Assembly (NCBI RefSeq): GCF_004364175.1
Contig: NZ_SNZW01000011.1
Span: 372,001-436,000 of the forward strand
Origin: Maribacter caenipelagi
GTDB taxonomy: Bacteria; Bacteroidota; Bacteroidia; Flavobacteriales; Flavobacteriaceae
DNA: 64,000 nt
Direction of reading: 5' to 3'
Made by a program: the position numbers and the translations under genes
In this document: positions 60,452 through 64,000 of the stretch, piece after piece
How positions within the stretch are numbered: position 1 is the stretch's first letter
Layout: every line of letters starts with the position of its first letter
Notes under the pieces: generated by a model
Database searches by the model: none
Seen by the model: the letters and a program-made list of their open reading frames with translations, nothing else
What the model was told of the DNA's origin: nothing

Positions 60452-60480
60452 TTGTTTTTACGTATAAAAATGTATTTTTG
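60452..60480 (+). promoter_or_regulatory. Promoter of the DtxR-family regulator
   Basis: TTG at 60452-60454, an 18-base spacer and TATTTTTG at 60473-60480 match the Bacteroidota consensus. Start of transcription near 60487 leaves about 12 leader bases before the ATG at 60499 and excludes the upstream TTG codon at 60478 as start. Confidence 0.75.
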
Positions 60481-60498
60481 TGTTTATATTGTTTTTAC

Positions 60499-61161
60499 AT
60501 GACATTATCTGAAGAAGATTACATAAAAGCTATTTATCATTTAAGCGAGTTCAATAGTAAGTCTGTTGCTACCAATGCCATAGCAGAGCAGATGAAGACG
60601 AAGCCGTCGTCAGTTACCGATATGATCAAAAAGCTAGCGGAAAAGTCTTTGGTGAATTATAAAAAGTACCAAGGTGTGTCACTTTCTGAAAAGGGAAGGT
60701 TGGTAGCACTCTCTATCATTAGAAAGCATCGTTTATGGGAAGTGTTTTTGGTAGACAAATTAAATTTTTCTTGGGATGAAGTCCACGTTGTAGCCGAGCA
60801 ATTGGAACATATAAAGAGCGATGCTTTAATAGATAAATTAGATGCTCATTTAGGGTTTCCGAAAGTGGATCCGCACGGAGACCCGATCCCTAATAAAGAC
60901 GGAGTGTTTACCAAATCTGTAAAAAAGTTAATAAGCGAATTACCAGTTGGTAGTCAAGGCGTTTGTGTTGGGGTTAATGATTCGTCGGCAGCTTTTTTAA
61001 AGTTTTTAGATAAAAATAAAATCTCTTTAGGCGATACTTTTAAAATATTGGAAATTGAAGAGTTTGATGAATCCGTTACTATTTCTACACGATCAGGGTC
61101 TATCAGAATATCCAAACAAATAGCAACGAATTTATTTTTAGAGATCGTAGATGTAGAGTAG
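60499..61161 (+). CDS. DtxR/MntR-family metal-dependent regulator with FeoA-like domain
   Basis: This regulator of about 220 residues has a winged helix (MTLSEEDYIKAIYHLSEF, SVATNAIAEQMKTKPSSVTDMIKKL), the dimerisation and metal-binding helices with His and Glu residues (RKHRLWEVFLVDKL, VHVVAEQLEHIKSDAL, HLGFPKVDPHGDPIP), and a C-terminal FeoA/SH3-like domain (LPVGSQGVCVGVNDSS). It represses metal-uptake genes when loaded with Mn(II) or Fe(II). It lies between a divergent TonB receptor and a downstream ZIP transporter (26 bases away). A palindrome at 60432-60449 is its likely site. Confidence 0.92.
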   Translation: MTLSEEDYIKAIYHLSEFNSKSVATNAIAEQMKTKPSSVTDMIKKLAEKSLVNYKKYQGVSLSEKGRLVALSIIRKHRLWEVFLVDKLNFSWDEVHVVAEQLEHIKSDALIDKLDAHLGFPKVDPHGDPIPNKDGVFTKSVKKLISELPVGSQGVCVGVNDSSAAFLKFLDKNKISLGDTFKILEIEEFDESVTISTRSGSIRISKQIATNLFLEIVDVE

Positions 61162-61187: not shown

Positions 61188-62009
61188 ATGGAAGAAATTA
61201 TAGCGTATTTTGAATCGATAGACCCAGTATTAGCTGCGTTTTATGCGACATTATTTACTTGGGGGCTAACTGCAGCCGGTGCTGCTTTGGTTTTTCTATT
61301 CAAGACAATGAACCGTGCTGTCTTAGATGGTATGTTGGGTTTCACTGGCGGAGTTATGGTTGCGGCAAGTTTCTGGAGCTTACTGGCGCCTGGTATAGAA
61401 ATGAGCCCAGGAGAAGGGTTTGTTAAGGTAATACCAGCAGCCGTTGGTTTTTTCTTAGGTGCCATGTTTATTTTTGGATTGGATAAAGTATTACCGCACT
61501 TACATATTAATTTTAAAGAGAGTGAAGCAGAAGGCGTAAAGACTCCTTGGCGTAGAACCACCTTGTTGACCTTAGCCATTACACTCCATAACATACCGGA
61601 AGGTTTAGCGGTCGGGGTTCTATTTGGCGGAGTAGCAGCTGGTTTTGATGGTGCATCTATTGGTGGTGCCGTCGCATTGGCGCTAGGTATAGGTTTGCAG
61701 AATTTTCCAGAGGGTTTCGCCGTAGCTATGCCGTTAAGAAGACATGGTTTAAGTAGAAGTAAGAGTTTTATGTTCGGTCAGGCATCTGCACTTGTAGAAC
61801 CAATTGCTGCTGTTTTAGGGGCATGGGCAGTGATGACTTTTCAGCCTATTTTACCTTATGCACTTTCATTTGCCGCTGGTGCAATGATTTTTGTTGTGGT
61901 GGAGGAAGTGATACCAGAAACGCAGCAAGATAAATACACCGATATTGCTACAATGGGCTTCATTGGCGGTTTTATAATTATGATGACTTTAGATGTTGGG
62001 TTAGGGTAA
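61188..62009 (+). CDS. ZIP-family metal transporter (GufA-like)
   Basis: This 273-residue protein has about eight membrane helices. The two metal-path motifs of GufA-type ZIP proteins are HNIPEGLAVGVLFGG in helix 4 and QNFPEGFAVAMPLRRHG in helix 5. A further EPIAAVLGAWA in helix 6 and VVEEVIPE in helix 7 add acidic ligands. ZIP proteins import Zn, Mn or Fe across the inner membrane. Co-transcription with the DtxR-type regulator suggests Mn or Fe and metal-repressed expression. Together with the TonB receptor it gives a full route across both membranes. Confidence 0.93.
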   Translation: MEEIIAYFESIDPVLAAFYATLFTWGLTAAGAALVFLFKTMNRAVLDGMLGFTGGVMVAASFWSLLAPGIEMSPGEGFVKVIPAAVGFFLGAMFIFGLDKVLPHLHINFKESEAEGVKTPWRRTTLLTLAITLHNIPEGLAVGVLFGGVAAGFDGASIGGAVALALGIGLQNFPEGFAVAMPLRRHGLSRSKSFMFGQASALVEPIAAVLGAWAVMTFQPILPYALSFAAGAMIFVVVEEVIPETQQDKYTDIATMGFIGGFIIMMTLDVGLG

Positions 62010-62072: not shown

Positions 62073-63083
62073 ATGGGTATTTTAAAATATAGTTTTTTGC
62101 TTTCGGTGGTATTCTTAAAATGTGGTAAAGCTCAGGACATAGTAAATCCAGTAAATGATGAGCAAACTAGTATAGTTGACTCAGTAAACTACAGAGATGA
62201 AATGCGCTCGTTTGTTATTAATTTGAGCGAGTATGCCAAAAATGTAAAGCCTAGCTTTAATATTATTCCGCAAAATGGAATAGAATTAATTACTAAAAAA
62301 GAAGATGCTAAGGGTAGCGTTTACACAGATTATTTAAATGCCATAGACGCACAGGGTCAAGAAAATTTGTTTTACGGTTATAAAAGAGATAATGCAAAGA
62401 CACCTACCTCCGTTACCGATTATATGGTCAACTATTTAAAAGTATCACAAGATTATAACAATGAGATCTTTGTTATTGATTATTGTAAATCTGATAGTGA
62501 TGTTGAAAATGCTATAGAAAAAAACTTAGACCTGGATTTTATTCCATTTGCGGCACCAGAACGAGATTTAACGGTAATTCCTGAAATTTCTGAATCATTA
62601 CCAATATCTACAAAAAATATATCCTCTTTAAAAGATGCCAATAACTTTTTATTTTTTGTAAATTATTCTGATTATGATTCAAAAAATGATGTAATTGAAG
62701 CAATTTCAGCAACAGATTATGATGTAGTATTTATGGATTTGTTTTTCAATGACGGCTCTGAATTTGGAAGAACTATGATTGAACGTTTAAAAGTAAAATC
62801 AGATGGTACTAAGCGCTTAGTATTATGTTATATGAGTATAGGCGAAGCGGAAGATTACAGGTTTTATTGGAATACTGTATGGCATAATCAAAAACCGGTT
62901 TGGTTAGAGGAAGAGAATCCAAACTGGCCAGGAAACTATAAAGTAAAGTATTGGGATCCGGAATGGCAAAGTATTATTTTCGGTTCGGAAAATGCTTATT
63001 TAGACGCTATTTTAGCAGTGAACTTCGATGGTGTTTATTTAGATATTATCGATGGATTTGAGTATTTCGAAAACAAAAACTAG
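62073..63083 (+). CDS. GH114/TM1410-like exported glycosidase with apparently circularly permuted barrel
   Basis: This 336-residue exported protein (leader LKYSFLLSVVFLKCGKA) matches the endo-alpha-1,4-polygalactosaminidase (GH114, TM1410-like) family, but in rearranged order. Residues 40-170 hold what are normally strands 5-8 (NIIPQNG 63-69, ENLFYGY 97-103, IFVIDY 132-137, FIPFAAPERD 156-165). Residues 190-336 hold strands 1-4 (FLFFVNYSDYD, DVVFMDLF, LVLCYMSIGEAEDYRFYW, WPGNYKVKYWDPEW, GVYLDIIDGFEYF), and the stop follows directly. All eight strands are present once, so a complete barrel could form. A -7 box TATATTTG (62040-62047) precedes it. A PelF-like gene follows, suggesting a role on a galactosamine-rich exopolysaccharide. 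Confidence 0.82.
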   Translation: MGILKYSFLLSVVFLKCGKAQDIVNPVNDEQTSIVDSVNYRDEMRSFVINLSEYAKNVKPSFNIIPQNGIELITKKEDAKGSVYTDYLNAIDAQGQENLFYGYKRDNAKTPTSVTDYMVNYLKVSQDYNNEIFVIDYCKSDSDVENAIEKNLDLDFIPFAAPERDLTVIPEISESLPISTKNISSLKDANNFLFFVNYSDYDSKNDVIEAISATDYDVVFMDLFFNDGSEFGRTMIERLKVKSDGTKRLVLCYMSIGEAEDYRFYWNTVWHNQKPVWLEEENPNWPGNYKVKYWDPEWQSIIFGSENAYLDAILAVNFDGVYLDIIDGFEYFENKN

Positions 63084-63236
63084 TGCTATTTCTATTAGGT
63101 ATTTCATCGATCAGCACCTTGCTTTTAACCGTTAATAGATAAAATAAAGAACTTCAACAATTAATAATTAAAAGTCTTTTTATTAGCTTTTTCTTTGAAC
63201 TTGGGAGCAAAATTTCACTCTCTCAAAAAAAGTTTA

Positions 63237-64000
63237 ATGGATTCTGAAAATTCTAAGAAAGTACTTTTAATTTGTGAAGGAACATATCCCTTCAATACAG
63301 GGGGCGTTTCCACTTGGGCAAACGACCTTTGTACTCAAATTAAGGATACGGACTTTGTAATCTACTCTATAAATGCCAATGTAGAAGTACGCACAAAGTA
63401 CCCAATTGGCGATAATGTAAAAGATATTATTCAGGTACCTATGTGGTCTCCTGAGGAACCTTTAGACTGTGTAGATTACGATATTAAGTACTCGGATATA
63501 TTACAAAAAAAAGAGCGAACATCACCTAATGTAATTACAGCTCAATTTAAAAGCAATTTTCATTTATTTATTAATGAACTATACAAGCAGGAAACAAATA
63601 TATCTATTCTAAATAACTGTTTTTATCAGATGTGGTCTTACTTCCAAGAGTACGATTATAAGGCTACCATGTGCAGTAATATCATTTGGGAAACGTTTTG
63701 TGATGCTATAAAAGAATCTTTGCCTGAACATGAGTTAAGTGAGGTGACTCTGGAAGATATTACCATTGGCTTAAGATGGATTTATAGGTTCTTAATACCT
63801 ATGGCGGTCAAAGTACCAAAGGTAAATATTAGTCATGTAACCATTTCTGGAGTAGCGGTTATACCAGCGCTAGCATTAAAGTATCAATATAATACCCCCA
63901 TTTTAGTTACTGAACATGGCGTTTTTATTAGAGAAAGATTATTGGCTATAAGCTCTAGTGATTATTCTTATTTTTTAAAAGATATGCTTATTAAGTTTTC
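63237..64000 (+). CDS. PelF-like GT4 glycosyltransferase (DUF3492), 3' end outside window
   Basis: The first 254 codons are visible from the ATG at 63237. The start, KVLLICEGTYPFNTGGVSTW, matches the PelF/DUF3492 opening, and ISGVAVIPALALKYQY then PILVTEHGVFIRERLLAI matches the conserved TEHGIYxRER block. PelF is the cytosolic polymerase that makes the cationic, galactosamine-rich Pel exopolysaccharide from UDP-sugars. The rest of the GT4 domain and any PelG, PelE or PelD partners should lie to the right. It follows the GH114-like gene by 153 bases, with a weak -7 box TTTCTTTG at 63190-63197. Confidence 0.85.
   Translation, partial: MDSENSKKVLLICEGTYPFNTGGVSTWANDLCTQIKDTDFVIYSINANVEVRTKYPIGDNVKDIIQVPMWSPEEPLDCVDYDIKYSDILQKKERTSPNVITAQFKSNFHLFINELYKQETNISILNNCFYQMWSYFQEYDYKATMCSNIIWETFCDAIKESLPEHELSEVTLEDITIGLRWIYRFLIPMAVKVPKVNISHVTISGVAVIPALALKYQYNTPILVTEHGVFIRERLLAISSSDYSYFLKDMLIKF

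Follow-up and report, generated by a model that had tools for sequence, protein, structure and literature searches.

The window, the whole stretch of DNA analysed here, comprises 64,000 nucleotides of Maribacter caenipelagi (contig NZ_SNZW01000011.1, positions 372,001 to 436,000) and lies in a draft genome of 20 contigs and 4.28 Mb. Near its end it carries a gene for a protein of the TM1410/GH191 group of glycoside hydrolases (GH). This protein is a naturally circularly permuted barrel with the strand order 5-6-7-8-1-2-3-4, in which the C-terminal half of the canonical barrel precedes the N-terminal half. The gene and its parts are listed below; the rows cited are those of an alignment of permuted proteins described further down, and the model is an AlphaFold2 prediction.

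62073-63083, + strand: permuted GH191-like gene, 336 residues, ATG to TAG, frame intact.
62073..62132, + strand: N-terminal signal sequence, residues 1-20, with a helix at 9-14 and a low predicted local distance difference test score (pLDDT) in the model.
62121-62123, + strand: Cys17, a possible lipidation site by homology, preceded by Lys in the window copy.
62190..62567, + strand: old C-terminal half (DSSP of the model; TIGR01370 profile positions 184-304), with α4 at residues 40-58, β5 at 63-67, β6 at 93-97, β7 at 131-137 and β8 at 157-161.
62361..62363, + strand: Glu97, putative acid/base at the end of β6, equivalent to Glu225 of TmGH191, 147/147 rows.
62568..62645, + strand: seam between the old C terminus and the old N terminus, residues 166-191 (model and rotation test).
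62646..63068, + strand: old N-terminal half (DSSP of the model; TIGR01370 profile positions 44-177), with β1 at residues 192-195, β2 at 218-221, β3 at 249-255 and β4 at 320-324.
63042..63044, + strand: Asp324, putative nucleophile at the end of β4, equivalent to Asp156 of TmGH191, 147/147 rows.

Comparison with solved structures by phmmer aligns residues 201-333 strongly to residues 25-151 of TM1410 (2aam), and residues 41-149 to residues 162-260, the latter match being weak alone (i-Evalue 0.048). The order of the halves is therefore reversed. The same arrangement is seen with the NCBIfam TM1410 profile (TIGR01370), where profile positions 184-304 (2.0e-13) are matched upstream of positions 44-177 (1.0e-40). 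Summed over the two stretches the match amounts to 184.4 bits against a cut-off of 181.25, and each half alone falls below it. The Pfam GH114 model (PF03537) recognizes the second half only, with residues 213-333 corresponding to profile positions 14-120 of 231 and no full-length match. Since the collinear order of TIGR01370 is not found, we assign the protein to a permuted sister clade rather than to the ordinary GH191/TM1410 members.

Doubling or rotating a sequence is the classical test of circular permutation. We used a hidden Markov model (HMM) of length 281 built from 11 canonical proteins. The native window protein matches it in two separate stretches of 146.6 and 71.2 bits. After doubling of the mature protein in silico, the match becomes a single continuous stretch of 224.2 bits that covers profile positions 19-277 of 281. 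Upon rotation in steps of four residues the score is best, 227.1 bits, when the protein starts at residue 181, and lowest, 105.9 bits, when it starts at residue 301.

The AlphaFold2 model of the window protein is an eight-strand (β/α)8 barrel with a pLDDT of 91.4 and a predicted template modelling score (pTM) of 0.86. Foldseek ranks GH191 structures first, with only about half of the protein aligned. With VIA-align, the 50 rows listed include pyruvate kinases, MTHFR and other barrels, and no GH191 structure. We take this to result from aligning a rotated barrel sequentially, and by the tool's own note such an absence is inconclusive.

A preliminary description, made from the sequence alone, had proposed a GH114-like barrel permuted by exactly half. 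Its central claim, β5-8 followed by β1-4, is borne out by the profile order, the doubling and rotation test and the structure model, and the same evidence supports each strand occurring once, with the signal sequence placed before strand 5. The residue coordinates given there, including a linker at about 166-190, are correct. Aligned separately to family profiles, both halves match the canonical family in reversed order, and in the model they close into one confident eight-strand barrel comparable to the 2AAM-type fold; neither a collinear GH114 alignment nor an unclosed barrel, the outcomes named as fatal to the proposal, was seen. Two points need adjustment. The TM1410 type holds, and the nearest family is GH191, not GH114. 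The strands are divided equally, as proposed, but the break falls between β4 and α4 and the leading barrel helix is α4.

According to the GH191 report (PMC12054363), the putative active site of TmGH191 consists of Asp156 and Glu225. By counting along the phmmer alignment in 9eux numbering, these correspond to Asp324 and Glu97 of the window protein, which in the model stand where the fourth and the sixth canonical strand end. We aligned 147 rows of permuted proteins, in which the window protein is present twice. Both acids are kept in every row, and Q67, N68 and R263 are conserved along with them. In the window protein, Asp324 is 12 residues short of the C terminus. Across the alignment, the chain ends 8-25 residues past the nucleophile (8-14 in 141/147 rows, 8-17 in 145/147), and the break therefore lies in the β4-α4 active-site loop, at the same place throughout the set. 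In a 69-row alignment of permuted proteins, mostly from Bacteroidota, the region aligned to residues 162-191, which includes the seam, measures 28-31 residues.

The permuted form is a widespread clade in several phyla, beyond the single gene noticed initially. A scan of a genome collection found at least 549 relatives, of which the best 80 were kept, and all 80 are permuted; as top matches to a permuted query these give no measure of frequency, which is provided by the samples searched with the family profile. Over all fetched loci, 175 open reading frame (ORF) rows encode 145 distinct permuted proteins, as judged by the last 200 residues. A further 11 ORF rows (9 distinct) are canonical, and in another 26 (25 distinct) a single half was seen. 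Upon recheck with better profiles, 20 of these 26 are canonical and collinear, two are permuted (L149 and L023) and four are weak (L026, L027, L028 and a Thermus ORF in L204).

Permuted proteins occur in Bacteroidota, Spirochaetota and Fusobacteriota, as well as in records labelled with other phyla. The phylum counts include the seed genomes, and some phylum labels come from metagenome bins that are possibly misbinned. In the Bacteroidota sample, the TM1410 profile matched 37/395 genomes, with 24 permuted, 2 canonical over the cut-off and 11 weak or partial only. The sample for the phylum of a Spirochaetota record had 31/198 genomes matched (27 permuted, 2 canonical over the cut-off, 2 weak), that for the Cloacimonadota record 4/117 (3 permuted, 1 canonical) and that for the Caldithrix record 4/40 (3 permuted, 1 canonical). 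Fusobacterium and Cetobacterium also carry the permuted gene. One of the fusobacterial records, NZ_CP084075.1 of Fusobacterium vincentii (L031), is 2.1 Mb long, labelled as a plasmid and has one annotated feature, which suggests a chromosome under the wrong label.

Closer to the window, 4/60 relatives at genus level have the gene, the window genome included, and all four are among the 36 genomes of its own genus. At family level 24/397 genomes matched. Seventeen of them carry full-length permuted genes in 18 places, one (G353) carries a canonical gene, and the remaining six contain fragments or weak or divergent matches. One of these six, G345, encodes a divergent 512-residue permuted protein (L023 1126-2661, - strand), in which the old halves are separated by a large insert and the second half is matched with a gap. 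A search for a phage origin gave no match in 50,697 phage records.

Quick trees, rooted on canonical rows, were computed after the permuted rows had been rearranged to canonical order. A single branch separates 78 permuted representatives from 11 canonical rows with a Shimodaira-Hasegawa-like approximate likelihood-ratio (SH-aLRT) support of 98, and the tree of the first half alone recovers the same split with a support of 99. For the second half, a tree that keeps the permuted rows together improves on the free search by 69 log units and is not rejected by the approximately unbiased test (p-AU 0.934). On these sequence comparisons a single origin of the permuted clade is favoured, though not proven. 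The canonical order may be the ancestral one, which is favoured by distant GH114-like relatives sharing it; the trees were given their root on the canonical rows. None of the 212 matching ORF rows, duplicates included, holds more than one copy of a half, as a tandem-duplicate intermediate would. An origin through tandem duplication and trimming, as first suggested, is plausible but unproven. In G798, two canonical matches lie about 3 kb apart. The permuted copy from one Spirochaetota-sample genome (L186, G903) groups with the Fusobacterium copies at an SH-aLRT of 95-97, which suggests transfer between phyla.

The permuted gene of the window is flanked by the following genes.

60478-61161: iron-dependent-repressor family regulator with a FeoA domain, upstream.
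61188-62009: ZIP-type transporter gene, upstream of the permuted gene.
63195..64000, + strand: PelF-type glycosyltransferase, next gene downstream, continuing past the window end, with an in-frame ATG at 63240.

The part of the PelF-type gene inside the window matches PF11997 (DUF3492) at 3.6e-52, and the whole gene scores 169.1 bits against the NCBIfam PelF model (cut-off 100). The cluster extends past the window end, where a 534-residue membrane protein is followed by a canonical-order GH114-like gene, a 662-residue protein and a 1333-residue DUF2194 protein. The 534-residue (L005 6783-8387) and 662-residue (L005 9173-11161) proteins both look membrane-like by eye and are without a Pfam or NCBIfam match; their homologs occur at the same positions in 16/80 scanned loci. 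The 534-residue protein stands in the place of PelG, as judged from Cetobacterium; it was considered as PelG-like and rejected, as it matches neither Pfam, NCBIfam nor annotated PelG proteins. The GH114-like protein (268 residues, L005 8374-9180, contig 438374-439180) matches PF03537 in one stretch, 14-228 of 231 (1.4e-14), and scores 33.3 bits with TIGR01370, below the cut-off. The cluster thus contains two barrels of one Pfam family with opposite strand orders, a few genes apart. The 1333-residue protein (L005 11158-15159) matches DUF2194 only at 30-546, the rest being without a Pfam match; by eye it may carry TPR-like repeats and a C-terminal outer-membrane barrel, resembling a fusion of the PelA deacetylase and PelB.

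The preliminary description had suggested a search for same-order homologs beside PelF genes, and such homologs exist. The permuted gene adjoins PelF in the window locus and in 16/80 scanned loci, which share the other genes of the window cluster, and it is the first gene of the pel cluster in Cetobacterium and the last in Fusobacterium. Homologs of the upstream regulator and of the ZIP transporter recur in 14/80 and 13/80 scanned loci, respectively. Canonical relatives are also found near pelF in Cereibacter and Thermus, and T. maritima, used as a control genome, has both TM1410 and DUF3492 matches. Two genes downstream of pelG, a plasmid of Cereibacter encodes a GH191-like protein in canonical order that is fused, as seen by eye, to RTX-like repeats (L143 5007-6464).

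The association extends to whole genomes. The co-occurrence tests ignore genome kinship and assume that both searches drew the same genomes. In the Bacteroidota sample, a PelF-type DUF3492 protein is present in 22/24 genomes with the permuted gene versus 5/371 without; counted by genus, the figures are 10/12 and 2/159. In the Bacteroidota family that contributes most of these genomes, the permuted gene and PelF are often on different contigs. The Spirochaetota sample has PelF in 9/27 genomes with the permuted gene versus 5/171 without (Fisher p 5.6e-6). Statistically, the link to Pel is therefore real, though it is not strict.

Many members appear to be exported and anchored. A Cys in the lipobox column is present in 68/69 aligned permuted proteins, preceded by S, G or A in 64/68, and a stricter lipobox pattern is found in 91/147 rows of the wider set. 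In 68/69 rows the distance from the Cys to residue 44, which is inside α4, amounts to 11-41 residues (median 17). The fusobacterial copies that were read (L031 and L032) have no such Cys. Two further proteins, L113 and L022, look like canonical GH191 lipoproteins by eye.

We propose, with a probability of roughly three in four, that the window protein belongs to a clade of permuted GH191-type glycosidases of single origin, whose members act as exported endo-α-1,4-galactosaminidases on a Pel-like polymer. The protein would be exported, and in many members lipid-anchored. It would act as a retaining enzyme with Asp324 as the nucleophile and Glu97 as the acid/base, and its substrate would be the galactosamine-rich stretches of a Pel-like exopolysaccharide. 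The window enzyme, encoded just upstream of PelF in a Pel-like cluster, may trim or release chains of that machinery, and stand-alone copies could degrade the Pel of their own cell or of neighbours. The clade would have arisen once, when a canonical GH191 gene was duplicated, fused and trimmed.

Several observations weigh against this proposal. The gene is patchy, with 4/36 genomes of its genus carrying it, and no measured activity, structure or localisation was found for any permuted member. The canonical T. maritima enzyme was neither active on fungal galactosaminogalactan nor seen to bind it (PMC12054363). With respect to the single origin, the free tree of the second half alone fails to recover the clade and needs three changes, and the canonical sample is small (11 rows), with some long branches. 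The window copy has a Lys before the Cys that would be lipidated. Only PelF and the DUF2194 protein of the window cluster are supported as Pel-type by profiles, and 64/80 scanned loci lack any tested pel gene nearby, although at 25 of these 64 less than 5 kb of sequence is present on a side (more at the other 39). A single family (f38) accounts for most of the PelF co-occurrence in Bacteroidota, and 18/27 permuted Spirochaetota genomes have no PelF match; a role limited to Pel synthesis therefore does not fit all members.

The alternative that fares best is a permuted barrel with another job, either on a different (amino-)polysaccharide or in scavenging foreign polymers, with the Pel link being secondary. 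The Spirochaetota genomes without PelF agree with it, as does the open substrate range of GH191, and outside the Pel-type loci neighbours recur in small groups of loci only, such as a DnaK-like cluster seen by eye in four loci. The conserved putative catalytic pair with its flanking residues, and the co-occurrence with PelF, seen in samples of two phyla and often without linkage, speak against it, and we consider it a minority possibility that deserves to be kept in mind. The product could also stem from two half-barrel genes that had separate origins and were fused, since either route yields the same protein and no duplication intermediate appeared among the 212 ORF rows. Yet both halves are of the same family, each is compatible with the same single clade, and no stand-alone half was identified among the 26 half-only ORF rows, making such a fusion improbable. 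We judge slightly less probable still that the barrel is catalytically dead and serves as a binding or scaffold protein, with the break opening the loop beside the nucleophile. A chain end 8-25 residues past the nucleophile is an unusual cut for an enzyme, but both acids and Q67, N68 and R263 are retained in 147/147 rows. An artefact of this genome, be it an assembly misjoin, a frameshift or a wrong gene call, is ruled out by independent assemblies, as the frame is intact and the same order is present in three further genomes of the genus, 16 further family-sample genomes, the best 80/80 loci and other phyla; the window copy itself is known from a single draft genome.

Under our proposal of a permuted glycosidase, the new chain ends may have a consequence for orientation. 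In a canonical lipoprotein the anchor precedes β1 at the base of the barrel, and the active site would point to the side opposite the membrane. The anchor of the permuted clade would be near α4, whose first residues are at the active-site rim, so the cleft would be turned to the membrane or to the export machinery. The loop next to the nucleophile would become a free tail at the C terminus, and this tail could gate the cleft. Permutation may in this way have re-aimed an anchored enzyme, giving one selected enzyme type that spread through several phyla, but we regard this idea as speculative and rather doubtful. The copies L031 and L032 have no Cys, and the re-aiming would therefore not hold for every member.

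The closest known enzymes are TmGH191 (TM1410; 2aam, 9eux and 9euz) and Env-GH191 (9ep5), which share with the window protein the sequence family, the barrel and the placement of Asp on β4 and Glu on β6. Their strands run from 1 to 8, whereas the window protein has 5-8 followed by 1-4. Judging from the strand order, the chain would end at the barrel base in these two enzymes and at the active-site rim in the window protein. GH191 was proposed in 2025 as a family distinct from GH114, and Env-GH191 cleaves Pel with a preference for stretches rich in galactosamine (PMC12054363). According to the same paper, GH114 (Ega3), GH135 (Sph3) and GH166 (the PelA hydrolase domain) are alike in fold and catalytic pair and act on α-1,4 galactosamine polymers; the Pfam GH114 model covers one half only of the window protein. 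PelA combines hydrolase and deacetylase in one protein (PMC12022489), unlike the window protein. Our search of the open literature, which excluded subscription papers, bioRxiv and CAZy, found no described permuted GH114 or GH191 enzyme among the papers listed, and the available texts of the GH191 paper (PMC12054363), the PelA paper (PMC12022489) and two pel-operon papers do not mention permutation. Profile libraries see a half domain or two pieces, and the permuted form is therefore easily missed or misannotated.

To our knowledge, natural permutations of triosephosphate isomerase (TIM)-barrel glycosidases are few. The PgaB deacetylase (CE4) also modifies an exopolysaccharide and is described as circularly permuted in the title of a paper cited by PMC10485009, but it belongs to another enzyme class and pathway. 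GH70, compared with GH13, is a natural permuted (β/α)8 glycosidase explained by permutation by duplication (PMC4919382). The GH70 chain starts at α3, with the break between β3 and α3, whereas the window protein breaks between β4 and α4; GH70 also differs in being a glucan-synthesising enzyme of another family with extra domains. While GH70 is known in print, the clade described here adds a family that degrades a biofilm polymer and a break in the catalytic loop that is kept across several phyla. The clade also provides a natural experiment on the benefit that a barrel enzyme may draw from having its ends at the active-site rim instead of the base.
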